From assembly GCA_009192285.1 (NCBI GenBank), contig WBVU01000011.1:1422668-1486667 (forward strand): DNA of 64,000 nucleotides, written 5' to 3'. Below are positions 1,067 to 64,000 of this stretch, piece after piece. Every line of letters starts with the position of its first letter. Position 1 is the first letter of the stretch. The stretch comes from Morchella semilibera (taxonomy: Eukaryota > Ascomycota > Pezizomycetes > Pezizales > Morchellaceae). The notes beneath the pieces are model-generated. The model did no database searches. It saw only the letters and a program-made list of their open reading frames with translations, and was not told the origin of the DNA. The position numbers and the translations under genes were made by a program.

Positions 1067-1656
1067 ATAATCAACATACACCATCGACACGAACATTACC
1101 CTAGTAAAGCTTAGGGTTGGAGGCAAGGCTGTTTTTCGGTGGCTCGGAAACAGTGGGTTGATGGAGCTTAGGACGAGTGACGAAGGCTATGGTAGCTTCA
1201 TCCAAGGGTGGTTATACCGTTAAAGTTTTTTTGGTCTTCTTTTGGCCGGTTTTGTTTATTAACTTTACTGGCGCTTATTTGCTTGGTTGATTGCGCGCTT
1301 TTTTTCGACTTATTTTTGGTTTGGTGAAGTCCTGGTGTTCTATTCTTTTCGGAGCGTTCGATGATACTATGTACAGTATTAGTATTAGTTTATTTTATTC
1401 TCTCCTTTGTCACCATTGTTTGGTTCTGGGAAGCCCAGCATTCGGTTTATTTTGTGATAATGTTTCTGCGTTTCCAAATGGTGGGCAACACTATTGTCAA
1501 TGTTTTGTATCTACACAGTACGGCACAGAAAGGCATAGTGGTCGCATGTTGCGGGTTGCGCAGGGTACCTTAAAAATATCAGACTACATGTAGTAGCATA
1601 GAATTCTTGAGTAATTTAGTACCATAGTTGTCACTCTAAAGTTTAGGTTGCATGTA

Positions 1657-1871
1657 TAGTGGCGGACACTCAAAACCGACCCTTAGTTAAGTTGTTCTAG
1701 AAGCTATGGGGAAGTGGTTTTTTAATTATGTCGAAATCCCTTCTGTAGGGCTGTTGGGGGTAGGTAACAGAACTATTTTACAGAAGGACTTTCTTCCTGG
1801 ACAAGTGTTGTGGTGTTGAAAGTCAGTGGTTGAAGGATAGTTTGATGGTCGGTTCTGTGTGTCCGCCACTG
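1657..1871. mobile_element. MITE with Fot1/pogo-like ends (about 215 bp)
   Basis: The two ends are inverted copies of a roughly 27-bp sequence. Left reads (t)AGTGGCGGACACTCA then AACCGACCC; the reverse complement of the right end reads CAGTGGCGGACACACA then AACCGAC. Both ends are flanked by TA (1655-1656 and 1872-1873), which fits a TA target-site duplication. A CAGT start and TA duplication are known features of the pogo/Fot1 branch of Tc1-mariner transposons. There is no transposase frame, so the element is non-autonomous. The family assignment is an inference from the end sequence. Confidence 0.65.
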
Positions 1872-2757
1872 TACCTGTTGTGAGGCCCCTTTACTTTCCC
1901 AGAAACCAATACTTTACATATAATCAACTAGCCGCCAGGTGCCGCAACAAGTTCAAATTACGACCTATCAGCCGTTCCATCCCTAGCCATATCGCGGCAG
2001 GTATCAGTTACTGATCCGCTTCCATCTTCCTTTTCTTTGATCTTTAGATAGGTTTTCGCTAACATGTATATCTAGAAAATGCGCTTTCTATGCTTTCTAT
2101 CAAGTCCTGAACTCGAGTCCTACAACCCAACGCTTATAGTTATAGGCTTGTTGTGGAACCTTCTGTTTGTCGTCGTAGGTAGGTATTATGGGCCAGCTCT
2201 ATTCCACCAGCATCACCTAGAGTCTGACAGCTTTTAGTATGCACTCTCGTCTTGATACTCGGCTCCGTTACAGTCTACTATCTTGAAGATCATGAACCAT
2301 TGGGTATGGAAGTGCTGTAGGACCCCCCCCCGGGGGGTTAGAGGGAGGACCAGAGGTATATCACGGCTTTACTAAGGTTTTTGGTATAAACGCACATGCT
2401 GCTAAGGACTTTGACTAAAAGAGTTACGCATGTTGGTATGTTGATGTCTGGGGTTTCCCTTGTGCCACTGTTTGATGCCAACGATGTTTGAGAAGATAGT
2501 TCAAGGCAGTATACTGCGGTATAGCATACTAGAGAGTTATTCTGTAATACCTATTTAGTATCGGGCGAACCTGCATTGAGAAGCGTGCCATGACATGAGG
2601 GTTCACGTGGTACATAGGGGTAGTATGCACGGGGGTGTCTCGGAGGCATGCCATAGCTTATATAGGTAGTGAGTGCTAGGGTTTTAAAAAGCCATGCGCG
2701 CATAACAACCTCCATCAAGTCAATAATAAAGATGGTTGAGGACGCTTGTTTAGCATA

Positions 2758-2899
2758 GACGACCCCCGGGCCACCTCACTCGGACAGTCAATCATGATTG
2801 GTTGAATAGAGGAACTGAAGTCACTTGAAACGTTGATCTTTCCTTTTCTACGTTAACTGTCCGAGTGAGGGGGATGTCCGAATGGCCCTGGAGGTCGTC
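2758..2899. mobile_element. Short inverted-repeat element (MITE candidate, about 142 bp)
   Basis: The left arm (GACGACC, then GGGCCACCTCACTCGGACAG) is matched in reverse complement by the right arm ending 2899 (CTGTCCGAGTGAGG, then GGCCCTGGAGGTCGTC), with a 13-base insertion in the right arm. TA lies immediately outside both ends (2756-2757 and 2900-2901). There is no coding capacity. The structure suggests a TA-targeting non-autonomous DNA transposon. A stable hairpin RNA locus is a less likely alternative. Confidence 0.6.
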
Positions 2900-5788
2900 T
2901 ATATCAACGACTTATCGTGTTGTAATATTGGCTGCCTCCGGGCGTAGCCAGCCAAAGTGTCTAGGACTACGTGTATTTGTCCGGTAACCACATATGTCAC
3001 TGTTTTATATAAGTACATGTATATAAGATATCTACATGTAATCTTGTACATACTGTAGTCAGTTATGTCAAGTCTCGTACTGTCCAGTCCTCTCTCCAGT
3101 CGATTTGTAAAATATAGATCTAGCAGGGGGCATAAGTGATAATCTAGGTAGATGGTAGGTTGGTTATTGGGTGTGGGTCTCCATTTCTGGACGCCTATAA
3201 TTATGTGGGTGTTTCACCGTGCCATTAGGTAACCTTAGACTCAGGGGTAGGAGGCCAAGATACCGAGTGATACGCTATGACCTGATTTTTATTGTAATAG
3301 CTGGTGCCTACATGTACATAGTTAAAATCCCTATGTATCTAAGATATACAGGAAACAAATAAATTTCGGTGCGAAGTGCAATATGCAGGTACCTGTCTGC
3401 GCCCGCATAGTAGCTCCGCGGAAGAAATCCTGAGACATAGGGCTGAATATCTATCCTAATTGACCTTGGGTACTCTTTGAGTACATGCGTGCACTTAGAA
3501 CAGTTAACAGTATAGCCCTGCGAACAATAGTGTAATCGGGGGGCTTTGGGGGGTTGGTTGTCAAAGAGGGGCCGTATTCTGGCCAATGCGGAATCATCGT
3601 GGGAATGATAGTGTAGATTGCCGCTCATCAATGAGCTCACCATTCCATCCCCTAATCCAGCCACTGTGGGCAAAAAAAAAAAAAAAAAAAGCCTTCCCCT
3701 TCTATTCTTCCATGGGCGCAGCTCTCGATTAGATCTGCCTACTTAGGCACAGCTGCATGGCCTTGACGGACATGGATTATATATGCGTGACAGTGGCTGG
3801 ATGGTGGGTTTATCCGCTTATTCATAATAGTAGGAGATAGTTGATATGGATGAACATGTGTTCCTTCTGCCTTCTGCTCACCCGGAGTATCAGAGGATAA
3901 GAATCTTCTGGATACCAAGTTTACGCGCCGACACTTAGAACCACACCGGCCGACCGGTCACCTTAACAGGTAAACGGGTTTGGATTACGGGACCCCTGGC
4001 CCTGGTAAATCCAGTTGTTCTGTTGCCCCTATAGAAATATTATGGGCAGGGCTTCACCAGGCTCCTTCAAGATAGAAATAGTTTGAGTATCTTGTAATTG
4101 TTGAAACTCCAGTGGATCGAAGATCGGCTTGCACTATTAACGAGAGATTTGATGAGCTGGTGGAGAGAGTTGTGTAACTAGTAGAATTTGTCAATCTACT
4201 TGCCAGTTAGCAATAGGTTCTTCGTGGTAAATTAGGCCTGGGAGTTCTACTCGGTTCTCCCTATTTCCTGCCTCAGTCTTTTTAGGATTGTTACGATCTG
4301 TTGCCTAGAAGCCATGTAATTAGCACAATTATGCAAACAATGTAAGATTCGACAAAGCCCCCAGATGTGCCTTCAAGGGGAGATTGTCCTTTTTGTTTGG
4401 AAAAAGACTGGTAAGTTGATGTCACCTGATGAGTCAATCAATAATTACATGTAGCTACTACATACATGTAAGTAGGTACTGGGGGGCCTTTCTGGCGTAG
4501 TACCTTCTCAATTAAGCGATTTTTCCAGAAAGCCTTGGTGAAGTTTCTTCACCGGAGATTTCTCGTGTGTAACTGCTGCCTTGCATGTTTTGACCAGGTT
4601 CCTGGGGCTGGGACGTCGATGTGAATCTCTAACGTCAGTTCATCCGTCGGCTGCTTCCGAAACCTAGCCCCCCCCCCCTTGTTTTGATATATGTAGATGC
4701 TACATGTACTTTTTTAGATGGTAGATGCGCTTATCTCTAGTCCAGGGAAATTGCTCATAAGTGCTCGAGGACTTATTGAGAAAGGTATATTTAAAGCGTT
4801 GTATTTTTAAATATGTAGTTGCAGTCTCGATTCCGTTGCGTGCGAAGTATACCAGATATATATGCCTCATTAATTTTGTAGACTTGTTTTGTTTACATTG
4901 TATGTTGCACGATACCGATGCTCAACTAAGTGGCGAGTGAATAATGACCGTAGATATTGCGAGGGCATGGAAGGGTTAACTACGCAAAAATTTACAGTAC
5001 CGTCTAAGCGAATATATGGGGTGGACTGAGGCAGTACCTACATGCCAGTAACGCATCTTAATCGGAAACCACCAGCACCAGCAACTTTTATGATCCCTGC
5101 ACATTCCAGATCTTACAGAAAGATTGTTCATCAGTTGATCACTCGGTGGCAAATATCTGACAAGTGGAAATTATATATGCAGGAACAAAGCATAAACTAC
5201 ATGTATCATTGGATTGGGTAATAAATGGACTGGGCATCAGAATACGAGTCAAAGACACTTTTTAATTTTATATATAACAAAAGAACTAGACGATATTCCA
5301 GCAACAAAAGAAAATGGCGACAGCCCGGTAATACTAGTAACACATGACCCCAAAATGCTACACCATAACCCACCACATAACCATTATCACCACCTAGATC
5401 TAGCATAAGCTACTGCCCAAAACACCTTATTTTAAGCCAGAAAACAATCCCCCGAAAGCTCTCAAACCCGTAGCCACGACCCTATTTCTTGACACAGATA
5501 TCCATCATATATAGATCATATCGATCCGCCAACCCCCCCCCCAAATGTGTGGATTATTCTCAACCAAGGATATATTTCTATCACAAGGTATATGAGGAAG
5601 TGGTTGTTGTATGGAGGGAAAGTACTCCATGAGCGTATCGCTATCTTCATGTGTAATGATATCGCAAAGTGGGTCTGGTTCGGTGAGGCGAGCGGGTGGT
5701 TTGGCTTGCTTATTGTCGGGGAGTTGTCCTAAGATGCTGTCGGTGGTAATAAAGGTATATCGCACAATATCCTTCGCAGACATAGTAA

Positions 5789-5968
5789 TTAGGTCTTGCG
5801 AATTTCGACGATTTCGAGGGATGCCGCGATAGTATTCTTGTGTTGGTGGTTTTGGCGGCTTTCCTTGCCAGCATGACGGCGCAATACTTTACCGCACATG
5901 ATGCACATACCGTGGATGGCAGGGTTGTGAGGACCAAAACCACACTCCTCGCAGTATTTTTCGCCCAT
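5789..5968 (-). CDS. Small zinc-ribbon protein, unknown function (59 aa)
   Basis: A single-exon frame from the ATG at 5968 to the stop at 5789. It has four cysteines spaced C6-x2-C9-x12-C22-x2-C25, the pattern of a small zinc ribbon, followed by GKV and a basic, His/Asn-rich tail. The segment around HGMCIMCGK is weakly reminiscent of the Cys-rich leader of FCP1-type phosphatases, but no phosphatase domain follows, so no function is proposed. The frame stays open upstream, but the upstream part is low-complexity and the ATG at 5968 has an A at -3. A TATA-like TTATATAAAG lies about 225 bp upstream on the minus strand. It could be a small conserved gene, a fragment, or chance; the regular cysteine spacing favours a gene. 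Confidence 0.5.
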   Translation of the reverse strand: MGEKYCEECGFGPHNPAIHGMCIMCGKVLRRHAGKESRQNHQHKNTIAASLEIVEIRKT

Positions 5969-9200: not shown

Positions 9201-9880
9201 TATGCATGGTGTCTGTACGTACGTACGTGTAGCCAAACTTAATCGGTAAACATCCAGCAAATTTTTTTAAACCATTTAATTTAGAGGCACGAGGGTTAGT
9301 ATTAAGAGATCACCACACGTAGTCTTGCAGCTTAATATGCCTAAATATGAGAAACTGAGTCATTGGGAAAGAGACTCTTTGAAGAACACCAGGTTCAAAC
9401 TAGTTCATACCGAAACAAGAGAAACAACCCCCACCGTGAGGATTTTATCATAGGCGATAAGGCGTGGGTCCATATTTCATGTGCCCAGGTACTTGTCACA
9501 CCTAAGTACATGTAACTATACCGTAGGTACATGTGCGTAGGTACATGAGTTACAGGGGGATTCGTAGTCATATGTTACATGTAGTGTTGAGTGTCACACC
9601 TGCGCCATCTTAATTACTTGCATAATGTGTTTCTTCGGCGTAGATAGATACTGTAAACATGCTATATAAAAAAAATTTACACGAATGATTCACAATGTGT
9701 TTTCATGATCATCAAAAATTTCAGAGTAATGACTCGCAGAAAACTTCGAGTGATTCCTCGTGAGCGATCAACGGTTGCGGCTCAGTGTCCCACCATCAGC
9801 GCGTATCCGAGCCCAATCTCCCAAAGGAAAACGTCCCCTCAACCCACTATCAGAACAGACCTTCACAGGAACCCCCCACG
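6201..9880. other. Intergenic stretch, no gene supported
   Basis: Several open frames of 60-130 codons occur between 7266 and 7864 on both strands, but they overlap one another, contain no recognisable domain and are not flanked by usable splice sites. The stretch contains the hairpin element at 8310-8462, a GTACGTACGTACGT run near 9217, and a cluster of GTAGGTACATG-type words at 9500-9590 that includes two TACATGTA palindromes (9507, 9576). Confidence 0.55.
8310..8462. mobile_element. Near-perfect long inverted repeat (MITE-like, 153 bp)
   Basis: A 39-base arm starting at 8311 (CGTATTAATTCGAATAG, then AAGGCCCGTCACACAAGACGT) is repeated exactly in reverse complement ending at 8461. Similarity continues for about 10 more bases with mismatches, and the loop is about 65 bp. 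TA flanks both ends (8308-8309 and 8463-8464). Near identity of the arms suggests recent insertion or strong selection on the hairpin. There is no coding capacity. Confidence 0.65.
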
Positions 9881-10683: not shown

Positions 10684-12099
10684 ACAAGCAATAAAAAGTA
10701 TTGAATATTTTAGGTTTTTGAGTTGTAAAACAGTATATATTGTGGGAAACGGACAAAGAATCCATAGAAAGGTATCTGGTTGGGGATATGATACTCCATA
10801 TATATAGGATAATCGTAATATCTCCCGCTACGGGTACGATCGATGCTTAGGGCTTCGACCGGGGTGGTGGGTGAATAACACCGCGTTATATATATACTAG
10901 GAGAGACGCCGTAGCTTTAGCTTTATTTTGATGGAGGTAGTCGGGAATCCCCACGAGCATGGGTAATCTCAGACCGATAATGTGGTTTCTAGATCCAAAA
11001 TGTAACTTCTGGGCTTAAGAGAACGGAAGATACAAACCCAGAGGCATGAAGCCCAATAGCAAATAATGGAGGAAGCTATCTAATAGTAGGGGTAACACCG
11101 GGAGGTTCGGTAATGATCAATCTTGAAGAGTCTTCATGATCGATCGTCAACGACTGCCAGTAGGCTCCCTGTAATTCTGAAGCCTTGAGATAATACCAAC
11201 CCTCAAGCTTCATATTATGTCTAAATTCCAGACGAATGGCTTAAAACAAACCATCTCGAGTACCGTGATATAATAACAAACCAACCTTTTTGATTAATTA
11301 AAAATTGATTCACCACTTATCACTCTGTTATGAATAAGCTTGTTTCATTAGGATCTTTCCCTCAATAATGTAGTTAGTGCACTCCCCGGAGGGAGGAAAA
11401 CTATAATCGCCTGAAGCTACCAAGTTGATCATTGGCCTTTGAGATTGGCTGGCACGCGAGCTCCGTGGTAGGTAGGAAAACATGCTGCTGTACCCAAGCA
11501 AGCAATCGACCCCACACTGCTTCAGCTAATGCACACGTGTGGCGGTATCGTCCGGTGCGATCCAGATCCTCAAGTTTATTGTCCACGCACATTACAGATT
11601 AAGCATCCCCTACATGTAGCACCATTCCCGAAAATGAAAATAAACTGATACCTTACCTTCTAAACGTGCCTAAGAAGATAGGAAATATGTAAATTGTAGC
11701 CCATTGAATACCTTGTATAATATGTATATGTGAACGTCCCTCCCAGATGAAAACAGAAACAGAGATAAAGGGGATAAGATAAAACAAGCCAGCAAAAACA
11801 TTCCTACAATAAAGTTGAAAAGGACTCGCAGAAAAATAAAAAATAAAAAGTAAAAAGTAAAAATAAACATACCGCCATATTTGTCGCCGTGAAATAAAAA
11901 AGCGAACAAGCGCCAAGAATTTATATAAAAAAATGAAAGAAAGCAGATAAAGACAACCCTAGGCATAAAACAACCTTCTTTTGTTCGTAAGTCCCATTTT
12001 TTTTTTTCATGAACACAATGCCAAAATCTTTTGCGCAAGACTCCCCACTCAACACCGCCATGTACAATAAACCGAAAATAAGTAAAATGCAAAACTGAA
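10684..12099. other. Intergenic stretch between CSL4 and the phosphatase gene
   Basis: This is the 3' flank of two convergent genes. A minus-strand frame at 11670-12125 encodes a Phe/Tyr-rich stretch that overlaps the end of the phosphatase gene and comes from an A-rich region, so I do not call it. One TACATGTA lies at 11611. Nothing else was recognised. Confidence 0.5.
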
Positions 12100-14852: not shown

Positions 14853-17800
14853 TTGCGGAGTGCTTGGTTGCCCAATATCCGTTTCGATCTTTTTTTGATC
14901 CAGCTGGGTAAATTTTACTTTTAATCTATGGGAAGGATTGAATGTAATTCTAGCGAGATACTTGCGAAGGATATTTGCAAGAGAGAGGGGGGGGGGGGTG
15001 CCTTCCTTTTAGGGGGGAGAGGAAGATATGACGACAGATGGCGGCGAAGGCGGGCAGGGCAGGGCAGGATGACGGCGGAAGGCAGGACGTGCGTTAGGTA
15101 GTGTCAGAGAACCCTTAAGTTGTGCCTAATGCGCGCTCATGATCACGGGATATCACAGGGAATTTGAAATAGAAGGGGAAGAAAGAAGTTGGGAGTGGCG
15201 TTTGGGATCCGGTTTTTCTGACCGGCTTCCAGAAAATTGATTATGTGGCGCAACAATCTCAGGAACAATTGTTTCCCTTGCTTTCCAAATTTCCCTTTCC
15301 CGTCCCTTTCGATCTCGTTCGTATGATATCCTTCGAGATTCCTTTTTACCGCTCTCACGCCGATAGATTGCCAGATAGTCCTCCCAACGTCACCAGTGCA
15401 CAAGTTTTCTATTAATTTTTCTTGTGGAAAGAATCAATTGCGTGACGTCGTCGTCGTCGCCCAATTCCCCCCTGTTCTGCTTATCGTTATTCTCCTTTTC
15501 CTTCTCCTTACTTCCCTTTTCTTTCTCTGTAGGTGAGATATACACCAGTTGGGTTGGGAATGGCAGCAGAGGGACAATGGCGACGGCGGTGGAGGTCAAG
15601 GATAGGTAAATGGGGCCTTGAATGATACCTAAATCTAGGTACAGGCGGCGGATAAGGGCCCACGTAGTGGATAAGAGAGGTGGGGGGGGAGGGGGGGGGA
15701 GGGGTGAAGGGAGGCGGCCGAGAAAAGGGTCCTATTTCAACTATTTCAACAATGGGCGGGCAGGAAGGGGATTTTGAGGGTTCTATTAAAGGTTGATCAA
15801 CCACCTCTACTGGCAACCTCAGTGGAGAGGGGATCAAGTACAGGGCAGGTCAAGTAGGGCCTAGATCGTTTCCCTTTTTAATTTTGTTCCTTTATCCCTG
15901 GCCCTGCCCTGTACGAGTACATGTATCTTGGTGGAGTTTTCTTCTTTTTCATTATATTTTATTCTTGTGGTGGTGTGGAGCGGGGAATTACCGCCGTGGA
16001 GGAGGGAGTGGATGGATGCAGGGAGCCAAGCAAGTAGCCAAGCAGGGCAGCATGGGAGTGCAGGATTCTTCTAAACCACCCAGCAAATTGCCACTCCCTT
16101 AAAACTACTAGGTATGAAGGGACAACGACAGGTACCACCTACAGCCCTAGGTACATGTACTCACACTCGCATGTCAAGACAAAAAAAAAAAACAGGCCCA
16201 GGATGCGCAGTGTATTCTACATGGTACGCTAAGTCAGGCAGGTAGCGAGCAGACATTGCCTTACTCTCTAAGCACGTGCATACTCTACATCCTCAGCAGA
16301 CGCCTCTGCTTAATTTAAATTGCTTGCTTTAATTGTATGCTATTATGCTGTGCCTGTATGTTGTGCTCTACCAACATGCTAGCATCTCTACCTACAATCA
16401 TTAACATCTACCCAAGAGAAAGTCTCTTCTCTAGAAGGTTGGAGCAAGGAACAAGCCTTATCTCAACCCTATTTACCTCGATTCCTATCCAATTTCCGAC
16501 TTTTTACCTACTTAACCTCTCTACTTTGCAGTTTTTACCTCGAGCTCACTAAGGCCTATATATGATCCTACCTATGATATACCTCTACATTCGATTTATC
16601 ATCTATGGCTCTGCTGTTGTTCTTGGCAAACACGCCCGCAAGCCATGCTTGAAAAAAAAAAAAAAATGTCCGCTGTGCCCAGTCGCGTGGCTGTTGCCGG
16701 TCGGTGAGAGCTAAAACAGTCCACCGATGACGCTATTCGGGTCTCAGTCGCTCAAAGTTATCGTAAAAGTAAGACCTGTGAACCCCCTGAACCCCAGGTT
16801 CATCGTCATCGTGTTACGGAACACACACAAGTCAATCTTAAACGCAAATAGTTACATTACCTGGAATCAGGAAACGGTCGATCGGAACATCTATCTAACC
16901 GTAGATACTCTTTGGGGAGAAACAGCTCCCCATGGTTGGAATTCTCTAGTAATTCCTCTTTTTAGAATCAAAATAGAAACATGACTCCCTGGCAGACGTG
17001 TCTCGAAATAAGGCGACAAGGAAGAGGACAACTCCTTCCCCTTTTTAGGCCTGGGCCACTTCTTACAAGGTTTCCAAGAAGCCTCCCAAAGTCCAGGCCA
17101 ACGGGATCGTCACTGCGACCACGCATTTTACGACAAAAAGCAAAAAAAATGTTCTGCTTGGCTTGGAATAACCGAAGATCCAAGCCGGAAAGGGTTCCAA
17201 AAAACCATCTGCCAAGACACATGCCATGCCAGTTCAACAACCACCTTCAACAATTTTATGGGGATCATTGATATTACTGTGGATGGCATTGTTAACTTCT
17301 CGACGTTCCTATGATCATTGTTTTTGGAAATCCTGCATGCTCTTTGCTTACATATACTTCAAGGAGTAAAAAAGCAAACATGTTTTATTACTTTGACATC
17401 ATCCGCCACCGTCATTGTCAAGGACAACGCCTGTCAAATACAGCTATGTAGTAAGCTAAATGGCACCAACATTCTGATGGTGGTTTGGCTCTCGTAATCT
17501 AATTGTTGAATTCGAGATGTGCGAGGATTAAGAGTAATTCTAGGCATATAGCTAGCGCCATACGACTGCAATGGCGGAACCTGAAACTGACTGCTGCAAT
17601 GGCAGACGATTCCGACTGGACATAGACCTTCAGATCTCCCCGCCTTGCCCGCACCTGGCTTCCGGTTGCGAGAACCAAATTAAATCATGAATGCGGCTCC
17701 TATCAGGTGAACAATCAGACACATTCCGTTGCATTTTCCCGCACCATGGGAAAGTATGACCAGAGCGTTTCGCATGAGTCATGGAGAGCAAAAAAAAACT

Positions 17801-20800
17801 ACACCGCCCTAAACCAAGTGCTAGCCAAGGACGGGTTTTCATCGACGATCAACAAGATGTTTAAAACCTAAGTATCAATTTGAACTAAGGGTAATTGTTT
17901 GGATCGAAATTCCCTATAAGTATCAGGGGCAAAGCCCTAGCACGACCAGCTGCCGGAAAAAAATTATACTCTATGATTTCAAGTTAACTAGACTAGTGAG
18001 CACTTTACTTTAGGTGCATATATTAAATACCAGCCAATTAGAAGAGCGCATTTGATGGTTTGATCATGGGTTATCACTCGGTGCATTTTGACCCTAGAGG
18101 AAAATGATTGCTTAGTGCTCCATATGTTAAAAAGAATATCAGTGACACCGGAATATCTTTTAGAACTTAATGTCTAAACATTAACGGTCTTTCGATATTA
18201 TATGTGCCTTGAAATCAGTATATGGAAGCGGGGATTTCATTCTTCGCCTTGCTAAAGGGCCCGCACTCCAACGTGCAGCGCATTATTTTCCCGTGTTTCT
18301 ACTGGCTCAGTCGTTGAATGCTGCTTTATCCTCATGTGCAGTAAGCCGAAGAAAGCTTGTTCTTTCTATAAAAAGAAGATGCCCGGTTATTAACTCATTC
18401 AAAGTAGACATAAACTCATTACCCTTCCGAACCCAACTTGGTCCGCATACCATTTAAATCAGGTGCACCATGCAAGATTTGCTTATATTGCTTATATGCA
18501 GACCCAGTTGTGTTCGGGAACGTTATGGAGTAACAAGTATGTATGTTTCCTGCAGTTCCAGGCGATACAGACACCCCAAAACCAGGGTATCGTGGGTATC
18601 ATGGGTATCATTGAATTCATTCTTATTATTAAATCAACTCAGTGTCAAAAGTCTGATAATCACAATAGATAACCCCACTAATTTATAGAAAGTCTTATAG
18701 ATGACACACGGACCCTAGGGTGTGGATTTTGTTCCCAAACATTCGTTTTGCGCTTAGATCGACCATATACATACAAGGCTAAAGCTACAAGTTGTATCAC
18801 AATAATCCTCGCAGGTGTTACAATATTTGCATAACTATATCGCAACTAAGGCTTGGGGTTACACTTTAGTGAGCAGCTCAGAGGATCCAAATGCGTCAGA
18901 CGGTGAAATGGGCCTACAGAGAGAGCCTTTGAGGCCGCATCCAGAGGCCCCCCCCCGTGATACTGCCCGTATCATAGAACCACAGTTACATACATAAGTG
19001 TTTGGTGGGTGCACAAATATAAATATATGCAGGCACCGAGATATATTACAGGGCAAGACCATGGTCTAATAAATCCAAGGGTAGGCATCCTGGAATTGAA
19101 CGCGAGGGGTCTTGCGCGTGACAGTTCGAAGATCAGGGTCTGAACACACTCGCTACATGTGGGTGAGGGACGGAGGATTCCAATACATACAGTAGAGTTA
19201 CACTCTTACATGTTGCGGGGAAGTGAAGCTCGGGGGACAAAAAGGAACAGAAGAAAGGAAGAACTGAACATACCGAGCGGCGTCCGCGACTGCCGCATGG
19301 TGACGCGATATGAAACTGATAAGAAAAGAAGGTTTTATTTTTCTGAGGGTAGAGTAGGTACAGTACATGTATGTAAGTACATGTAGCTAGCAAACTAGCG
19401 GGCCCCAAAGTAGTTGCAAGCCTGTCGGAATGTTCATCCGGATATATCTGGTGGGGATTTATTTTTATTTCAATTTTTAACTCTGATAGGTAGCACTCTT
19501 TTTTTTCTTCTTTTCCCTCCCTGGTCATTCAAATCGGTTGCATGTTACTTGGGCTGAACATGAGGACGACGGAGGGGGCTGGAGGGCTATGTACATGTAG
19601 GTACTTTCTTTCTTTCGTTCCCGCCCCGCCTTTCTCACTCTCGCCCTCTCTACTGCGGACCGTGCCGGGTAGAACTAGACAGCTGTATCCCGCGTGCGGG
19701 GGGTTACGGGTACCAACCGGTGTCTGATATTGGTGGTCTGGACAACTGGCATTACATGACGACGACGACAGCAACTAATACGCCGACGCAAAAGAAATTA
19801 AAAGAATCACCCTCCCAGTTAGCCCGCCTCTCGATCAATGCTTTATCATACCGAAAAAAAAAAAAAAAACAGCTTCTTTCTCCACCTATCGTTTCTTTTG
19901 ATTTACATTATAATCACTAAAGGCTAGAAACGACAACCCCTCCGACAAATGCTTCATCCATGATCAATTAAAAGGGTAAATGCCAGTGCAGTTCCCAGAT
20001 ACTTATCGCTGATCATGCTTGACGAAATCGCAATTATCAAAGGCCGCCAGAAAACCATGGAAGAAGAAGAAAAAAAGGTCAATATACGAATGCGCACGCA
20101 CAATTACATGTGCCTACTACTATTAAGGGCAAATAAGGCCGTCAGATAAGTAAATACCTACATCTAAGTGTATGGTTTGCATCGAGGCTACGCTGCCTAC
20201 ATACTTTCTCTACTATACACGTGGAGATTGTTTGCATAAGGGTACATGTAGCTAGAGTACAGCTAGAGACAGACACATACAGCTTGTCCCACCAGTATGA
20301 ACCAGTCGGCCAACACCTAACGACGTTGCACTGCCTAAGAAACAAAAAACAAAAAGTCTTCAAACGAAACGTGTATCCAGAGGATTAAACGGCCACCGTT
20401 CTTTTCCCCCCCCCCCAAACAACAAGTACAATCGACAACGGTAAAAGATTCGCAATCAGCACTTTATTCAGCTTCGATCCTTCCTGTCGCCATCGGCGCT
20501 CCCTCTAGCTGTATGTACGCACAATAGAGGGACGCCTTAATGCGCACCTAAGATGCGATAACTGATAGTTCTATCCAGCGCTGGCTTCGCGGGCTATAAG
20601 ATTAAGACTAGAATAAGATAGGAGGGACCCCTTTGTTGATTCCAAAGACATTCCTTATTACTAGCTGTGGATTCAGGGCCGAGGACAAAGAAAATAATAC
20701 TTTATATATAATAACACCCCTCAGGTATACTCTAAAGTCCAAAAAAAAGAAAAGAAAAATGTCTTCCTCCGCCTCCTCCTCCTCTCTCCAGCTGATACTT

Positions 20801-21202: not shown

Positions 21203-21226
21203 CTGGCTGGCTGGCTGGCTGGCTGG
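21203..21226. repeat. (CTGG)n microsatellite
   Basis: Six tandem CTGG units. Confidence 0.9.
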
Positions 21227-49128: not shown

Positions 49129-50828
49129 ATGGAAAAGCTCACGCCCGTTGCCGACGTCCTCGCCCCCAGCTTCCTCCCCGGCCACACCCCGCCGCAAAAG
49201 ATCTCGCCAAAGCCATATGTCTATCTCAAGCTCGTGCGGCTGCGGCCCGTGGCGGGCGTGGACGTTAGCTTCCGCATGAGGCTGTCGGACGGCGTGGGGT
49301 ATGTGCATGGTGAGTAACGTAGCGTCGGAGATTTCAATTTGTTGCTTGCAATTGGAGGGGGGTCTTGTTCTTTGGGGGAGGAGGAGGGGTAAACATGCAG
49401 CCAGCCTACTATCACTATCACTATCACTATCAGGTCAGACCAGAAGAATATGTAGAATAGCTACACAGCATCTGCCCACCTCAAGCCATAAAGTAGATAA
49501 CACACATTACACAAGACCTTTATGCACACACAAACACATACACAAAAAAAAAGACGCTGTTACGCTTGCTAACCAAGCCATGTATATATGCGTGCATGCA
49601 GCCTACTTCGGCAGCACCGCGTTCGACCGCTTCGTCCACGACGGGTCCATCAGGGTCGGACAGGTCCTCGAGATCCGCACATACAAGATTGGCATGCACG
49701 GCGGCGACCGCGGACACCCCTTTGTTGGCCTGGTGTGGATATATCCTGTCCCGCTTGTGGTTGCTGTTGCTGGTTTGGATGTTGGTGGTGGTGGTGGGGC
49801 TGTCAATGATCGGGCAGATACGGTCAATGATAATGCTGCTGCCGACGGTGTTGACGGCCAGGATAGGGCCACCACCACCACCAACAACGACTTACAAGCT
49901 GTAGACCCGCCCCCAGAGCCAGAAGCCCCTGTGCACGGGGGCAGAAAGATATCTCCGTCTGTAGCCATAGCTATAGGGGATATCGGTGGGAACGGGCCCG
50001 GGGCTACCGTCAACTCACCACCACCACAGCCACAACCACAAATACCACAACTATCACAACTACCACAACTACCACAACTACCACAACCTGCCCTCCAAAG
50101 AGCACCGCCCCCCGTGCTGCCTGTTCAAAATATATGGCTCCTGAACCGCTCCAGCCCAAAGCTGACAGACGAAATGCTCAAGATGAACCGCACAATGCTC
50201 AACAACCTCTCCAACAAGAACATGCGCAACGCCAGTATGCCTCCCCCCCTCACTCCCCTCCCCCCCTCTAGCTAGTGCAACTATACATGTAGGTACATGT
50301 AGTTTTTATATATATATATTATTATTTTGGGATAGTGAAAAACCACTCACACCCCTACAGACTTCCTTGCCGTAGTCCTGGACCGCCGCCGCCGTCCGGA
50401 CAGTCACACAATCGTAAGCCCCCCATCCCCTCTTCCCACACCAACACCCCATCCTAACCGTGCCACAACAGCCCAAGCAAGACTGGTACCTCTGGGACGA
50501 GTCGTCCTCCACGCGCAAAACGATCCTCAGCGTGTGGGGCGACCTGTGCGCCGAGTTCCAGCCCCTCCCGGGCACCGTCGTGGCCCTCTGGAACGTCCAG
50601 ATCAACACACGCTACGAAGACAACCCTGCCTCGGCGCGGTTGCTGCGCCTGCCACGGAGCGGCCTGGGCCATCTGAACGCGTACAGGAATAAGCACCCGA
50701 AGGGCATGCTGGACCCGCGGGACGTGCAGGGGTACCGCGAGCTGAGGGAGGCGTGGGGGAGGCGGGGGCTGGAGGTGAGGGGGAGGGGGGAGGGGGAGGG
50801 GGAGGGGGAGGGGGAGGCGGTGCTGTGA
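49129..50828 (+). CDS. RPA70N-like OB-fold protein, two putative OB domains
   Basis: Four exons (49129-49309, 49602-50234, 50361-50413, 50472-50828) give 1224 nt, 407 aa. Residues about 25-110 (KPYVYLKLVRLRPV, FRMRLSDGVGYVHGAYF, FDRFVHDGSIRVGQVLEIRTY) match the strand pattern of the RPA1 N-terminal OB fold, including the x-LSDG-x core and the GxIxxGxVLxI segment. A long low-complexity Gly/Asp/Pro/Gln linker follows (LPQLPQLPQ repeats). The C-terminal part (NIWLLNRSSPKLTDEML, NFLAVVLDRRRRP, DWYLWDESSSTRKTILSVWG, LPGTVVALWNVQIN) resembles a second OB fold of RPA-DBD type. No zinc-finger DBD-C is present, so this is not canonical RPA1. The C-terminus is an RGRGEGEGEG tail coded by a GGGGAG repeat. 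Domain assignment is by pattern only; a single-stranded-DNA or protein-binding role is inferred. Confidence 0.65.
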
Positions 50829-51696
50829 CGGACGTCTGTAGCGTAAGGCATCTCTTTAATTTCATTCGTTTGTAATTCATTGGGTGGTGTTTATTATGTG
50901 GTCGGCGGGCAGCCGGCGTATGTTTTGCGGTTTTAATCATTTAGCTACATGTAGCTACATGTAGTTCTTGTTATAGTAAAAAAGAAAAAATGGACATCCT
51001 GAGCATTATATATATCTACTCATCTTCCCGGCTAACATGTCTAGCTGCTTCATACATTGCGGGGGGGGGAACGGTGTTTTGGTCGTGTCACCAGATATCA
51101 CTCGTATACTTTTTTCCCCCTCTTCGTAATCGTAACCTGTCCGCAACTGGATGACATAGAGAAAATGGCCTTGTATATGGATATGGGATTAAGGACTAGG
51201 TGGATACGCAGAGCGTTTGAGGAAGCCTTGATTGGCCTAGCCTAGGTGTATATACGTTAACCGGAAAGGATGGCCACAATAAAAAAGTAGATATGTAAGA
51301 GCTCTACTCAAAGTGGACATACCCTGAGAGATTCCAAATACATAGAGGAGGTTGACCGTTCGATAGCGTCGTTGGAGTGGTCGAGTGATATTTTGTGACC
51401 AAAAAACTCTACTTTTAATTAAGGCGCTATTGTAGTTTACTTCTCCTGATATTCGAGGAATAAGTAGTCTTTCAAAATTAAAGCATGTATAAAAATGCCT
51501 GATTCCATACATATATTGGAAGTGGGGCAATTAAACCTTAGTAACTCCTGCTTTTCCATTTTTAACTAAAAATACAAAAAACGTTTCAAATCGCCGATTC
51601 ACGGTTAATTTAGACAGGAATATGCGGTCCAGATGTCATGTTTTCTCGAACCCATAATCTGACCTTAATGTAACCGTAGGGAAGGGGAAATTAGTC
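50829..51696. other. Intergenic, convergent 3' flanks
   Basis: Two TACATGTA copies spaced 10 bp (50946, 50956) and inverted copies of a CGAGTGATA-containing sequence (51075-51104 and 51382-51405). No gene is recognised. Confidence 0.5.
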
Positions 51697-52849: not shown

Positions 52850-54744
52850 GGTTGCTCTCTTTCTATTCTCCTGGGAATGGATGGTTAGAGGTAGTCGGCT
52901 CACATACATGTAGCCTTCACGATCTTGGAGTTCAAGGTGTCATTAAGGTGGTCAGATCGCGTGTGGATTACTCAGCTGCTACAGTTCTTCAGTCACATGA
53001 TAAGGAGGAGCGTGGGCATGTAAGCAATTGCATAAAGCAAACAAAATATGCAAATTCCTTTACATAAATGAGTGCGTACTCTTTGGGCTGACTCTATTTC
53101 AAGTTGTTATAGATTGCAATGAGAATCATACTCTAGAAGCCTACATTGTAGCTACTCTAGCTAGCTAGAATCCTTTGCTCTATTTACAGATTCTGATACC
53201 ATTCCCCCAATAAAGCGTAATGATCAGCACTTGCCTTTGCAAAATACCATCGTATTTCTTTTGACCGTTGTCCACTCTGCAATATAGGAGATGCATGTGG
53301 GGGTGGCCGTGGTAAACGGTCTTTTCTAAGGCAGAAATATGCCAAGCCTGATCTTGAGCCCTTCCGGGAGCATCTTGCGGGGCATACGGGAGTGCGATTA
53401 ATTAATTTAGAGGCAAAGTTAACATCGTAGAACCCAGAAAAATTAATTATAAGAATCAGCCTATTTCCGTGACCAATGAAAATATGTTACACGAGCTTCC
53501 AAGGGGCATGAGGAATTATCTCAGAATGCCTACCTCATTTAGAAATTCAAGATCTCCGAGAGGAGCTAGGGGGAAGCTAGAAGGGGATGGACGGCGATGT
53601 TCCTAGCTAGATACTCATATGTAGTTAATAATCATGATATTGTGAGCTGACATGTCAGTGGGAAAGTAGAGGCATGATCCGGCTTCTAGAAAGTGATGGT
53701 ATTGTCGGCCAATCATTGTCAAGCTAGACCGTGTACTGCCCCTTAAGCACAGATTAGCTTGTCCCCTGAGAAAACAATGAATTTCACGGATAACAACTCC
53801 GCCTTTTGTAATTTATGTTGAAATGTATTCGAGTAACTATGCGATCCCCTCTGCTTCGCAGTCTTGCCCGCCTAAAGGCGCCCAAATATGTACCTACTGA
53901 TCTATCATGGTCTAGGACAGTCACTGGGAACTAGGAGGCTTTGTGTCCGTTGGTAGAATAATTATAACTTATCGCGGTCTCAACATCTCAAACATGGATA
54001 TATCGATTGGTAGAGTGTGTGCATGTAATCAGGTCTCTCTATACCGTTAGAAGAACACCGAGGCATAGAAGATTCGAGGGTTTTTCGAGAACTATCAGGC
54101 AGATGTTTCTCAACTTTACCAATAGTTAAACCTGATAGGGCAACTACGCCAAGCACATCGGAGGCTGAAAATCCCACAGATATTCCTGTGCAGCGAGTGC
54201 ACAGTGCACGGTGCGTGACAAGCTCTCAACGGCAAGCGCTCTGGCTGGGTCTTACTCGGGGGGTTGAGGTAGGAAAAGGAAAGAAAGAAGCGAAATGAAA
54301 AAACGTCCGTTTAGGACAAAGACATATGTTGCTGGTCATCCTATGCGCTAGAGGTAGAGGTAGTGATAAGTTACAACCGCGCGGTTGCTCGAGTCCATGA
54401 ATTTTGTTATGGTGATAATTCTGCATACGCGAGGGGAAGAAAGATTTCCGTTGTTTGCCCTTGGATCACTAGATAGACTGTTTACATATCTCACTCAATC
54501 GGATGTCGACTCGGACACGGGCACGGGCACATTCCCCGCTTGCGACATCTTTGGTCCGGTAATTACTCTAAATTATCTGTGGCAGCGAGGCGAATGTTGT
54601 CGATCTGATCGAGGGACCACATCTTCGTTAATTGGTTTCTAGGCAAACACATGTAAAGTAGGCATTTGATTCAGCGTGTGATTGATCGATAGGGGTGAGG
54701 TCTGGCACATTGAGATTTGAGAAATCCATGCCTACCATATATTC
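52850..54744. other. Intergenic stretch upstream of Derlin
   Basis: No gene supported. TACATGTA at 52905. Open frames below 90 codons lack domains. Confidence 0.5.
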
Positions 54745-55463: not shown

Positions 55464-57361
55464 TTGTAAACTAGCCAGCCCAACCCAACCCACTTTTTTT
55501 TTGGGGGGGGGGGGCTTCATCAGCATCCCTTCCCCCATCCATCATCGATCAATCCATCCCATACCTACTACTTGTACCGTATGTACTTACATGTACCATT
55601 CCCAATTGCCTCCCCTATCCCATGATAATCATCATCCAACCGTTCATCCAGCGCCGCCGCCGTTTGACCCGTTTATTTTGTAGTAGGTAGTAGTAAATAA
55701 GACTCCACATGGCGCCAACTACACGCATTCGTTGCAATTACCTTATTGCTCAAGTTTTGCGCCTTAACATTCTTTGGGCAATAGAAAATAATAATGGCAA
55801 TCCAAATGATAATGAGATACCATGTGAGGCCAAAAACATTTACCTATCGTCTATCATCTATCAACGGGGTTATTAAATATGAGTACTTCCTTCTCTCGTT
55901 ACTGATAATGTGTGCCTCTCCTTCCCTCCTTTCTCTTTCTCCTTTCTCACTATCATCTTTCTCCCGCTCTCTTTAAATTTCACTGCCTTGCGCTCTCGTC
56001 ATCGGTCTGTGGAAGCTGTCAGCAACGTCTGCAGAAAGGGAAACAGAAGACGGGGAAGGAAAAAAACAAGAAGAAGTGAACAAGAAGAAGGGCAGCGTCG
56101 GCCTGCCTTTAAAAGAGAAGGACGAGGTTCACACTTTCTGGTGCATTATCTTCTTCATAATATTATTCCCTGTGACACGGGCATCGAATCCTCTTCGTCG
56201 CACCTTCGTTCCTTCCACAATCCCTGGAGCCTTTTTTTTTTTTTTTTTGCTTTCTGTCTAGGAAGATATTTTATCCTTTCATAGGCTGTCCCCCCCCCGC
56301 ATATCGTTACTCTAAATACCTGACGGCGCGAAAGACTTACATTTCTAGCTCAGTTTCTCCACCACCTCGGCGCCAACACTTGTGTCGAACGGCCCCCCCT
56401 ACCTTGCCACCCCTTACCACCCCCCCCCCCCCCCCCCAAAACTTTCATCTCCCCGAGGAATATCACAGCCTGTCAGGTAATCAGTATCCAGAATACCACC
56501 AGACAGCTTTTCACCGCCGCTGCTCTTCTCGCCCTTTATATATTTTCTTTTGTTTATCGGTCTCCTCCGTTATTCAATTGTTCTGCCCCGGCTGACGACG
56601 ACGATACTCTCTCATAACTCCTGCCTTGCTGCGGCTACATAGCTACTAGTGCTTGCTACCATTGATTTCCGTACCCGAGTAGCTCGCCCATATTTTATAT
56701 CTCAGATCCCGCCATTACTTTTAGTGCCCCTGCATACATATACCCAAGGCTTTCTTCCTTGAACGACGACAACGACAGAAGGGAGGAAAAGAAAAGAAAA
56801 ACCTCTAACTGCTGTTCTTGAGGAGCTCTCTCTTGTTCCCCCCATCTGAGATCGCCCCATCCAGCTTCCAGGGATTAGCAAGAGACAAAGAACACTTGCT
56901 GGATTTAGTTATTTTATTTTCAAAAGAAAGAAAAAAAGAAGAGGAGGGGAAAAAATTGCTTTGGTGAAAGAAGGAAAGAAAGGAAGGGGGAAAAAAAAAG
57001 TGGGTTTGTAATAGGAACGAAAGGCTCTCCTACTGTCGTTTACGGATCTTCGCAACACGCACGTCGCCGCCTTCTCTCCGCTTCTCCCCCTTTGATCCAT
57101 CTGTCGTTACCCGCGAAGACAACGGGATACCGAAGAATTGCTTGTGGAGCCTCAGTCATATCTGCAAGAAGGTTTTGAAATCGCAATTGGTCTATTTAGG
57201 CCACTCCCGTCACCCTGTCGACCGCAACAGCGCTGTCTAGGCCCTCCATAACAAGGTCTGGCCTATCTACAATAGCGCGCCCCGGGTTACAAACTGTACT
57301 TGAGATCAGATCACCAAGTAGTACCCAGAGGCCTGGGTCTAGCTTCTCAGGCTCAGATCTG
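55464..57361. promoter_or_regulatory. Long upstream region of the SFL1-like gene
   Basis: A 1.9-kb gap between divergent genes with one TACATGTA (55588), CT-rich blocks (55910-55980, 56220-56280), C runs (56419-56437) and A-rich purine tracts (56920-57000). Long 5' regions are usual for fungal regulators of this class. No open frame here has a recognisable domain. Confidence 0.45.
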
Positions 57362-60715: not shown

Positions 60716-60970
60716 CGGTGAATTATTTGACCACGGCAACCTTCTGCAGATGCATGTTCTCTACTTTATGTATGTGACCAAGACCAGCAAAAGCTTGGGT
60801 GGCCGGGTAACGAGGTAGCGTGACCGGCCCCCTCCAACATTACTCCCTGACTCTCCCGACTCCCGAGGCGCTGGAGATAGATAAAAAAACCCATCTTCGC
60901 ATCAGACCACAACTGCAGCTTGTAGTAATCACCTACGTTACATTCCTCCCGATCTCCGCTCCTCTCCATC
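60716..60970. promoter_or_regulatory. Short divergent promoter, DUF3245 gene (-) and LSC2 (+)
   Basis: Only 255 bp lie between the two start codons, so both genes must share this region or have overlapping leaders. No TATA box was seen in it. Confidence 0.5.
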
Positions 60971-62834
60971 ATGTTCAGGCTTGCCAGAAGTAGGCCCGTT
61001 TTGGCAGCTTTCAACGCTGTTAAGGTATGTTTCACGTTTCGTTTATTTCCCTATTATAGCCGGGAATCCTCAATTTTTTGTTTGTTTGATATTGAAATTC
61101 ATCATGCTAATTTTAGTAGAATTCTCCAATCAAGGGCAATCTTTTACAGTCCCAGAAGCGAAACCTATCAATCCACGAATATCTCTCGGCCAACCTTTTG
61201 AAATCCGTGAGTGAGCTCCACAAATGGCCATATAATATATGATATTATATATTACTATATAATAAATATATATGTATATATTGGGCTACCATCGTGCTGA
61301 TGGGCAGTGTTTAATTGCGTTGTTCGTTTTTTGCGAGAAATAGTATGGTATTGGAGTGCCTAAAGGTGCATATGCGAAAAATGCCGAAGAGGCAGAGGCA
61401 GTTGCAAGGGAGATCGGTTCGTGAGCAACTTTCTCGGGTGCGAAAACAGACTGGGATTACTGATGTTAAAATACAGGAGGCGATGATATGGTTATCAAAG
61501 CACAGGTTCTCGCTGGCGGACGTGGAAAAGGAACTTTCAGTAACGGGCTCAAGGGCGGTGTGCGTGTGATATACTCGTATGTTATCCAATATTTTGATTT
61601 CCATACTTTAAGATTTATGTATTAATTATTTTTAGACCAACAGAGGCCAAGATGTTCGCTGAGCAGATGATCGGTCAAAACCTCATCACTAAGCAGACTG
61701 GTGCCGCTGGAAAGCTTTGCACGGGTGTCTACATTTGTGAGCGTAAATTCGCTCGTCGCGAGTTCTACCTTGCAATCCTGATGGACCGTGCTACTCAGGG
61801 GCCAATCATTGTTTCCTCCTCTCAGGGAGGTATGGACATTGAGGGTGTTGCTAAGGAGAACCCCGAGGCTATCATTACCACCCCTGTTGACATCCATAAG
61901 GGTGTTACCGATGCCGTGGCTACTAAAATTGCTACTGATCTGGGATTCTCCGAGCAGTGCATTGAGGAGGCGGCCGATACCATCAAGAAGCTTTACAAGG
62001 TCTTTGTTGAAAAGGATGCTACCCAGATTGAGATTAACCCATTGAGTGAGACCAGTGATCACAAGGTCATGGCTATGGACGCAAAGTTGGGTTTTGATGA
62101 CAACGCCGAGTTTAGGCAAGAGGAGATCTTTTCTTGGAGGGATAAGTCCCAGGAGGACCCTGATGAAGTCAAGGCTGCTGAGTATGTAATTTCCTTAAGC
62201 ACAAGTTCTGCTATTCTAATTTACTGACCTGAACAATAGTCACGGCTTGAACTTCATCAAGCTTGATGGTGATATTGGATGTTTGGTCAATGGTGCTGGT
62301 CTTGCTATGGCCACCATGGATATCATAAAGTTGAACGGTGGCCAGCCCGCCAACTTCTTGGATTGCGGTGGTGGAGCTACCGCTCAGGCTATTGAGCAGG
62401 CTTTCAAGCTCATCACTAGCGACCCTAAGGTCACTGCTATCTTTGTCAATATCTTTGGTGGTATTGTACGATGTGACGCTATTGCCCAGGGCTTGATCGC
62501 CACTGTATCAAACATGAACCTTAGGATCCCAATTGTTGCTCGTCTCCAGGGCACTAACATGCAGGAGGCTCAAAGATTGGTAATATTTCAGTCACCTCCG
62601 GAGAATCTGATTAGGACCTGTGGCTGATTCGGGGGTATTCTAGATTAACGATTCTGGGTTGAAGATTTTCTCATTTGAGGACCTGCAGGATGCTGCTGAG
62701 AAGGCAGTGCAGTTCTCAAAGGTCGTTAAGATGGGTAAGCCCCAATTTATATAACCAAGACCAGCTGTATAGTGTTCTAACCAAGCCCAGCGCGTGATAT
62801 CGATGTTGGTGTTGAATTCACTCTTGGGATCTAG
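60971..62834 (+). CDS. LSC2: Succinyl-CoA ligase beta subunit, mitochondrial
   Basis: TCA-cycle enzyme of the mitochondrial matrix: succinyl-CoA + Pi + NDP gives succinate + CoA + NTP, as a dimer with the alpha subunit. Eight exons (60971-61024, 61120-61206, 61344-61416, 61477-61576, 61636-62181, 62240-62579, 62644-62734, 62791-62834) give 1335 nt, 444 aa, the usual length. The N-terminus [18 protein letters not shown] is a mitochondrial presequence; the mature part starts near [19 protein letters not shown]-grasp features: [75 protein letters not shown]. The C-terminus VGVEFTLGI is intact. Exon 2 uses the second of two adjacent TAGs as acceptor because the first would put TAG in frame. Nucleotide specificity (ADP or GDP) cannot be read from the sequence. 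Confidence 0.95.
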
Positions 62835-64000
62835 TTATAAATATGGTATGTATTTAGTGCTATGTGCTGGATGCTCTGATTAGAGAAACTTTGATTGTTA
62901 TTGATTCTAGTTGTTGGCATTCTTTGTACAGCTTACTGGGTTTTCCTTTTCTATCTGTCTTTCGTATTTTTTATTCCCAATTTTCCTCTCTAACAAACAG
63001 TCCACGCTACGATAGCCCCATTAATAGCCCATATACGTGCCATAGCCTACATACGTGCCCTCAGGTTTGCTTCATAGTGAAGCAGAAGCGCGAATAGATT
63101 CCTACATCTAGTAAAGGCACATGAATTTCAGTGCGGCCTTGGTATAGCCCTGTAAATAATAACGCCAAGACCTGAGAAGTATTTGGCTGAGCGAGCGTGA
63201 TAAGATAGGATACAATAAGTCCTCATACCCGAAACCATTGGCAGTAGAAAAAATTGCTCATACCAAACAGCACCTCTTTCGTTTTGCAGATCTTACTTTC
63301 CGCGGAAACATTCCCATCGCGAGTTGTTTCCGGACCCATAAGACTTGATGGGGTATAACACCCAACACCAAAAAAAAAAAAAAAAGGGATCCGGATTCCG
63401 TCGATGTGCTAGATGGTATCAGGAAATCACTCCAAAGGTACAACAATCAGGCCGCTCGGATAGCGCAGCTACATGTAGTTTTATGAATTTTGCTAAAGCC
63501 TATCCCATTAAGCCTACATGCACCTACTTACAAATCCACTAAGATGGACCCCGCTGGGTTTTGATCCTCTGTTTTTCTTTTTCGTCCCTCCAACGGTCAC
63601 AACCGCGGGCCCCCATACCATCTTAGGAAAAGCTTTTCTGCACTTCACCCCACCAAAGAGCCTCACGCTCTCATGTATGATACCTATGAACCCACAAAGT
63701 TAGATGAGGGGAAACCGCCTGCACCAAGAGAGACAAGAAGTATATTTGAAATGCCAACAGAACTTGTGAGGTTATCCTCGTCATGTTTTTGACTCCCCAA
63801 ATGATTGCTAATCGAATCTACGGAATTTAGGAAGAGCTTGTAGGATTTTTGGGATCTCCGCGACCGGAAATCAGACAAATAGGTATGGACGGGATGCCGC
63901 TTCATTCTTACAAAACAAAAGACTTATAAAACTACTCTTTGAAGCACTCGAGAACTTGGTTGGATACAGCAAAGGCCCGCAATCTGCAATTTTCAAGCCG
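62835..64000. other. Intergenic to window end, no gene supported
   Basis: 3' flank of LSC2 followed by sequence with short unrelated open frames on both strands, a 16-base A run at 63369-63384, and TACATGTA at 63470. No gene recognised. Confidence 0.5.

Follow-up and report, generated by a model that had tools for sequence, protein, structure and literature searches.

The window analysed here is a 64-kb stretch of DNA from the fungus Morchella semilibera (C10:1422668-1486667, in a genome of 56.76 Mb and 23 contigs), and the element in question is an 8-bp palindrome, TACATGTA, that recurs through its non-coding DNA. The window holds 11 gene models, of which eight were run against Pfam (three of them in part); all eight matched at least one family, and Bud13, Y_phosphatase and CoA-ligase are among the families represented. 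An earlier note on this stretch had located 37 copies of TACATGTA by eye. All 37 lie exactly where they were placed, and the window contains no others. The copies are given below, together with a Tc1-like miniature inverted-repeat transposable element (MITE) that enters the argument later; a dot marks features to which no strand is assigned.

1585..1592, strand., TACATGTA copy, intergenic
3014..3021, strand., TACATGTA copy, intergenic
3033..3040, strand., TACATGTA copy, intergenic
3309..3316, strand., TACATGTA copy, intergenic
4446..4453, strand., TACATGTA copy, intergenic
4463..4470, strand., TACATGTA copy, intergenic
4701..4708, strand., TACATGTA copy, intergenic
5198..5205, strand., TACATGTA copy, intergenic
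9507..9514, strand., TACATGTA copy, intergenic
9576..9583, strand., TACATGTA copy, intergenic
11611..11618, strand., TACATGTA copy, intergenic
15918..15925, strand., TACATGTA copy, intergenic
16152..16159, strand., TACATGTA copy, intergenic
19364..19371, strand., TACATGTA copy, intergenic
19378..19385, strand., TACATGTA copy, intergenic
19592..19599, strand., TACATGTA copy, intergenic
20243..20250, strand., TACATGTA copy, intergenic
21973..21980, strand., TACATGTA copy, intergenic
28587..28594, strand., TACATGTA copy, intergenic
28642..28649, strand., TACATGTA copy, intergenic
28750..28757, strand., TACATGTA copy, intergenic
29075..29082, strand., TACATGTA copy, intergenic
37859..37866, strand., TACATGTA copy, intergenic
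39713..39720, strand., TACATGTA copy, intergenic
40069..40076, strand., TACATGTA copy, intergenic
44362..44369, strand., TACATGTA copy, intergenic
45016..45023, strand., TACATGTA copy, intergenic
45285..45292, strand., TACATGTA copy, intergenic
45346..45353, strand., TACATGTA copy, intergenic
45570..45577, strand., TACATGTA copy, intergenic
50284..50291, strand., TACATGTA copy, in predicted intron 50235-50360, 10-bp pair with 50294
50294..50301, strand., TACATGTA copy, in predicted intron 50235-50360, 10-bp pair with 50284
50946..50953, strand., TACATGTA copy, intergenic, 10-bp pair with 50956
50956..50963, strand., TACATGTA copy, intergenic, 10-bp pair with 50946
52905..52912, strand., TACATGTA copy, intergenic
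55588..55595, strand., TACATGTA copy, intergenic
63470..63477, strand., TACATGTA copy, intergenic
1655..1873, + strand, Tc1-like MITE of family 1 including its TA target duplications, ends TAGTGGCGGACAC...GTGTCCGCCACTG

Abundance and location of the palindrome

How unusual is the number of copies? The order-2 Markov expectation for the window is 1.4 (the earlier note had estimated about one), and the order-1 and order-4 models give 0.9 and 7.1. Among all 256 palindromes of 8 bp TACATGTA is the commonest in the window, followed by ATATATAT (24) and TATATATA (23). The excess extends to the whole genome, which holds 22,206 copies; the reversed word, ATGTACAT, has 3,723. The order-2 expectation is about 1,144 (2,287 strand-counts) and the excess 19-fold, genome-wide expectations being scaled up from a 264-kb sample of which the gene-poor, site-rich window forms one quarter. 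The genome-wide count therefore lies far above the Markov expectation, contrary to an outcome for which the earlier note had allowed. The decamer CTACATGTAG occurs 2,029 times in the genome and its reversed form 30 times.

The total of 22,206 is an overcount, because some contigs are duplicated. Contigs C9 and C10 show no mismatch and three one-base gaps, all in homopolymer lengths, over 3,052 aligned bases, and matches run in parallel in the contig pairs C12/C13 and C21/C22. The identity of C9 and C10 over the compared stretches suggests a duplicated assembly, and since the two are the same save for the three homopolymer lengths, the pair is useless as a test of polymorphism. Yet a repeat found in both, at C9:49858 and C10:49890, does not match a third copy equally well in the two contigs (89 versus 86%).

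Sixteen 10-kb stretches picked by coordinate alone carry 45 copies over their 160 kb, with between 0 and 10 in any one of them. The window, with 5.8 per 10 kb, is richer, which its low gene content probably explains. Gene context was studied in a sample of 264 kb (plus small pieces), made up of the window, a set of fifteen 10-kb stretches and a 50-kb stretch centred on whichever 10-kb stretch had the most sites. With 100 copies, the density of TACATGTA in this sample is near the average for the genome. Genes were called with a small self-trained finder, which predicted 62 genes and 150 introns in the sample, about 2.4 introns per gene; the models are predictions without RNA support.

Ninety-five of the 100 sample copies are intergenic, four lie in predicted introns and one in a predicted exon. 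By local order-2 composition, 0.39 copies are expected in the introns and 0.75 in the 83 kb of exons, so that TACATGTA is enriched in introns and intergenic DNA, while exons stand at the chance level and are not depleted. The earlier note had proposed exclusion from exons. In the window the placement is as described, with 35 of 37 copies intergenic and the other two (50284 and 50294) in a predicted intron; exclusion is nevertheless too strong a word for exons that are at chance level. The intergenic excess (95 versus 4.5 expected, or 21-fold, at a density of 5.7 per 10 kb) makes TACATGTA an outlier among the ten top-scoring intergenic words of the form TANNNNTA, the next being TATATATA (6.8-fold) and TACTACTA (4.0-fold). 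The copies are mildly clustered, with a variance-to-mean ratio of 1.42 (P = 0.0014, 156 intergenic tiles of 1 kb).

Within intergenic DNA the sites are spread broadly. More than 1 kb out there are 24 copies in 35.7 kb on the start side and 30 in 45.3 kb on the stop side (6.7 and 6.6 per 10 kb), and within 300 bp there are three in 17.3 kb at start codons and six in 16.2 kb at stop codons. Divergent, convergent and tandem spacers carry 7.4, 6.6 and 4.7 copies per 10 kb. A promoter or terminator element was rejected, as TACATGTA shows no bias to either gene end in the 264-kb sample. The GC profile around the sites shows no departure from that of random intergenic DNA.

Anatomy of the site and spacing of pairs

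Over both half-sites, the flanks of TACATGTA have T at -4 with a frequency of 0.52 and A at -3 with a frequency of 0.62, and T is scarce at -2 (0.12) and -1 (0.11). A TA dinucleotide starts at -4 in 83 of 200 half-sites, where about 14 would come from background; 21 of 100 sites have it on both sides, and independence of the two sides would give 17.2. There is a weaker excess of TA at -8 (31 of 198 half-sites, again with about 14 expected), and beyond -4/-3 no single base stands out. The consensus is thus a 16-bp palindrome, TANNTACATGTANNTA, with TACATGTA as its core.

How tolerant is the core of base changes? Three of the 12 classes of single-base neighbours, TGCATGTA, TACTTGTA and TACGTGTA, were counted genome-wide. 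The A-to-G change at base 2, TGCATGTA, occurs 5,179 times versus 1,973 expected (2,668 for its reversed word), and the A-to-G change at base 4, TACGTGTA, 1,722 times versus 1,127 expected, which is below the 2,356 of its reversed word. Expressed per excess exact copy, these derivatives come to 0.15 at base 2 and 0.03 at base 4, so that the central change is five times rarer, the comparison being of these two bases alone. Neutral decay would leave the changes at the two bases similar and is thus disfavoured; the inequality fits recognition by a dimeric protein better. The central change creates a CpG, which can explain only part of its rarity, as the CpG observed/expected ratio is 0.76. In the 264-kb sample TACTTGTA had seemed to stand out as a neighbour at position 4, at 2.9-fold, but genome-wide (3,145 versus 2,029 expected; reversed word 1,867) it is at 1.55-fold, like TACGTGTA at 1.53-fold.

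Pairs of copies within 30 bp number 2,666, as against 129 for the reversed word. Pair clustering was discarded as a mark of function, since the reversed word clusters as well. The spacings within pairs were scored on the first 100 of the 2,666 pairs, all from contig C1, with a pattern that misses overlapping pairs spaced by 6 bp. Nineteen of the 100 are spaced by 10 bp from start to start, where other spacings average 2.7; spacings of 20, 21, 30 and 31 bp are found in 4, 1, 2 and 2 pairs. A peak at 10 without harmonics at 20-21 or 30-31 indicates one fixed register, which follows from the TANN flank, and rules out helical periodicity. The pairing that the earlier note had remarked on is accordingly genuine at 10 bp, and the helical interpretation given to it is not.

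Mobile elements and slippage as possible sources

Might so abundant a word be a trace left by mobile DNA? A search of the genome with window positions 1500-12000 exposed short repeats, among them family 1, to which the element at 1655-1873 belongs. This element, a Tc1-like MITE, is flanked by TA duplications and has the termini [C/T]AGTGGCGGACAC; several copies start with CAGTGG, and the family ends with CCACTG adjoining the TA. Thirty-six matches to it were listed in the genome, and flanks were read for 19 copies: that of the window, those of eight loci from the repeat search, and ten others. On the 5' side, G precedes the target TA in 17 of 17 copies in which a script could place the TA; two copies were dropped from this tally, one of which, L036, lacks the first base and by eye has C (17 of 18). 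On the 3' side, C follows the TA in 12 of 15 copies with a placeable TA, four having been dropped as cut short or without TA where expected. By our count, eight of the 19 copies adjoin a TACATGTA on one side or both, being inserted at its outer TA, while TACATGTA accounts for just 1.6% of the TAs in intergenic DNA. The window copy lies between GCATG-TA and TA-CCTG and has no TACATGTA at its own ends.

Two more short, TA-flanked repeat families with inverted ends, both multi-copy in the genome, are present at window positions 8308-8464 and about 2750-2900.

It might be supposed that Tc1-like elements made the palindrome. Those that end in CA...TG, if excised from a TA target by 2-base staggered cuts with both overhangs kept, would leave exactly TACATGTA as their full footprint (TA-CA-TG-TA), and very many rounds of insertion and excision of MITEs would then have scattered the word over non-coding DNA. 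Several observations agree with such a scar. TA-flanked elements with CAG...CTG ends exist in the genome, namely family 1 and the short elements L029:1778-2014 and L005:2036-2223. The word is dense near family-1 elements: eight loci, picked as best matches, hold 55 copies in 24 kb, including sites that touch the element, as against the intergenic 5.7 per 10 kb, and six of these eight have five or more copies, compared with 10 of 105 overlapping 3-kb windows of the intergenic sample. One of eight copies of another repeat family, L079 (C11:1207355-1207445), has 4 extra bases at an ATG-TA-CG site, where TA has become TACATA; this resembles the excision scar of a CA-ended element, a half footprint of Tc1 type, and in this single case slippage is also possible. 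For a full TACATGTA no empty allele was seen, the contigs C9 and C10 being identical. TACATA is 1.9-fold enriched (265 versus 139), and TATATA, TAGCTA and TAATTA are enriched as much. Finally, taCATGta is mentioned as a rare Tc1 footprint in C. elegans in a passage of PMC3520976.

The flanks, however, speak against this origin. G stands before the TA in 17 of 17 family-1 5' flanks and in only 50 of 200 TACATGTA half-sites (Fisher P = 4e-10, a comparison that concerns family 1 and leaves room for other source families), and the TANN...NNTA flank of TACATGTA is not an insertion preference seen in this genome. The unequal A-to-G change at inner and outer bases misfits the decay of a scar, and the footprints predicted from the ends of the window's two other repeat families, as we read those ends, are not enriched (TACCGGTA 2 versus 2.95 and TAGATCTA 4 versus 3.45 expected, in 224 kb). 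Target choice can account for the association with MITEs: these elements land at TACATGTA because they prefer a TA that follows ATG, as its outer TA does. We regard an excision scar as an unlikely source of the word, though it is the one serious alternative to a bound protein, and take the association to point to a target-site preference of Tc1-like MITEs.

A simpler proposal is that transposon families that contain TACATGTA carried and multiplied it. One family does so, as the word is internal in all eight compared copies (L019:603-866 and seven others, L079 among them). Against the proposal, over 99 sites no sequence is shared beyond a few flanking bases, family 1 has no TACATGTA inside, and the repeats found in window 1500-12000 (38 of 202 candidates having been scored) cover none of the 11 copies there. 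Because the flanks are unrelated, carriage is largely refuted as a general cause and is highly improbable; in particular, the copies are not explained by one ordinary transposon family, a circumstance that the earlier note had considered fatal to its proposal.

Slippage offers another neutral route, in which cryptic simplicity would build TA-stepped quasi-repeats (TANN, GTAC, TACC) in intergenic DNA, with TACATGTA as a frequent product. TA does recur at a distance of 4 bp at 1.65 times expectation in intergenic DNA, TAGCTA, TACCTA and TACATA are 1.7-2.3 fold enriched, and both the weaker TA excess at -8 and the clustering of copies are in keeping with this. The excess of TACATGTA nevertheless persists under an order-5 model (95 versus 49), the word is not a tandem repeat, and the reversed palindrome ATGTACAT, of the same make-up, has 13 intergenic copies against 95 in the 264-kb sample. 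Slippage leaves unexplained why one exact 8-mer should be favoured and why changes should differ by position, and we consider it quite unlikely as the cause. 

CpA is the target of repeat-induced point mutation, and TACATGTA contains CpA; a product of that process was rejected, the dinucleotide indices looking ordinary.

A putative recognition site for a dimeric protein

That one exact 8-mer should be in 19-fold excess throughout a fungal genome calls for an explanation, be it a very abundant DNA-binding protein or a mutational scar. To our knowledge no mutational scar on such a scale has been described. The reading that we favour, with a probability of roughly one half, is that a putative abundant, dimeric, sequence-specific DNA-binding protein recognises the symmetric 16-bp site TANNTACATGTANNTA, at the core of which lies TACATGTA. 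The sharpness of the palindrome, its symmetric extension to 16 bp, the rarity of the central A-to-G change and the single preferred spacing make this the better supported reading. The earlier note had left the choice between a site for a dimeric protein and a mutational or spacer process, and of these the binding site has gained, since the Tc1 footprint, as a candidate for the mutational process, misfits the flanks. The grounds on which the note had proposed a dimeric site have themselves weakened, as exons are at chance instead of depleted and the helical periodicity is absent.

What might such a protein do? It would use sites throughout non-coding DNA and not at promoters only, so a chromatin-organising or general regulatory factor would fit better than a pathway-specific activator. 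Two dimers could sit side by side, 10 bp apart, and Tc1-like MITEs, which are seen inserted at the word, would use the same sites for landing. One could go further and imagine an architectural protein of this fungal lineage, with about 20,000 palindromic sites that tile the non-coding DNA in a 10-bp register, double as landing pads for MITEs, and form an insulator- or origin-like code unrelated to promoters, the same word having been reached independently in oomycetes; we put this forward tentatively and think it somewhat unlikely.

Several observations weigh against a recognition site. It would take much selection to keep up such a number of evenly spread sites. A bias toward gene starts, expected of a promoter factor, was looked for in the sample and not found: the kilobase nearest to start codons has 5.1 copies per 10 kb (22 in 42.9 kb), and the kilobase nearest to stop codons has 4.5 (19 in 42.4 kb). 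The sample neighbours CACATGTA, TGCATGTA and TATATGTA are in 2.4-3.4 fold excess, a transition bias at three outer places that is the pattern decay would give, and the summed excess of all 12 neighbour classes is about 67, compared with 90 for the exact word (264-kb sample). The reversed word is six times rarer, so its pairs are proportionally no fewer and clustering is not special to TACATGTA; when pairs are scaled to the square of the copy number, the reversed word equals or exceeds TACATGTA. Lastly, no candidate binding protein was found, a search for KN-type homeodomains, which could miss genes split by introns, having given a PKNOX/TGIF-like protein only.

This sole KN-type (TALE) homeodomain is encoded at C14:782200-782292. 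Its recognition helix is VSNWFINARRRRLP, with Ile at position 50, and among proteins of solved structure PKNOX1 and TGIF1 match it best. Irx-like recognition helices have Ala at position 50, and a PKNOX/TGIF-like homeodomain with Ile-50 is expected to bind a TGACA-type site. An Irx-like regulator was therefore rejected, as far as the homeodomains found are concerned.

The same word has been met before. Phytophthora motif-1 of PMC3520976, which is M93 of PMC3597505, has a consensus identical to TACATGTA, which is thus already known as an abundant Phytophthora motif. As those papers describe it in the sections on this motif, motif-1 lies upstream of 12,070 Phytophthora genes (PMC3520976), M93 has 4,150 occurrences in P. 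infestans promoters (PMC3597505), and the word is tied to genes up-regulated during infection or growth. The discussion of motif-1 in PMC3520976 reads the inverted repeat as a homodimer site, cites TACATGTA as a preferred site of Irx in animals, and considers a Tc1 footprint, which its authors did not expect to explain the motif. The main text of a binding survey of P. infestans factors (PMC11267843) contains no ACATGT string.

What the two settings have in common is the TACATGTA consensus and its high abundance in non-coding DNA. They differ in organism, an oomycete there and a fungus here. The Phytophthora accounts, in the parts that concern the motif, deal with upstream regions and expression stage and name no binding protein, whereas here TACATGTA is spread through intergenic DNA and shows no leaning toward promoters. 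The link to Irx suggested for Phytophthora is without support here: Irx (Iroquois, a TALE homeodomain protein) prefers TACATGTA, while the only KN homeodomain of this genome is PKNOX/TGIF-like with Ile-50. A Tc1 excision footprint equals TACATGTA in sequence, although the flanks here differ from the insertion sites of family 1. A crystal structure shows the BEN-domain protein NACC1 bound to a palindrome that contains TACATGTA (a CATG site), as the structural account in PMC11472053 has it; NACC1 is an animal protein. The fungal case thus provides a second test beside Phytophthora, for which the motif-1 discussion in PMC3520976 proposes a homodimeric factor and doubts a Tc1 footprint.

No title or abstract on over-representation of TACATGTA in a fungus was found, in a literature coverage outside which most subscription journals fall. 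Among highly iterated words, the HIP1 element of cyanobacteria is likewise an 8-bp palindrome, many-fold over-represented genome-wide and without an agreed function. HIP1 also occurs in coding DNA, and in this it differs from TACATGTA, which is at chance in exons here.

Other sequences in the sample deserve brief mention. The word ATCACTCG occurs 39 times in 264 kb, with 37 intergenic copies versus 3.5 expected; ten copies are in the window (3264, 5138, 9747, 18073, 27557, 32896, 34048, 40532, 51097 and 51382) and 29 in other sampled loci. It belongs to a bipartite motif, RTCAY-N5-TATCACTCG. For 27 of the 37 intergenic copies the nearest gene end is a 3' end, in mixed orientation (17 same, 10 opposite), and ATCACTCG may be a protein site associated with 3' ends. 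An interstitial telomere-like sequence, CCTAACCC, is scattered at 21 places in the 264 kb (in the window at 28971, 30073, 33880 and 38670, the rest in other loci), and two long arrays (L012:4516-6387 and L013:2404-4032), built of diverged tandem repeats with units of about 100 bp, overlap long open frames.

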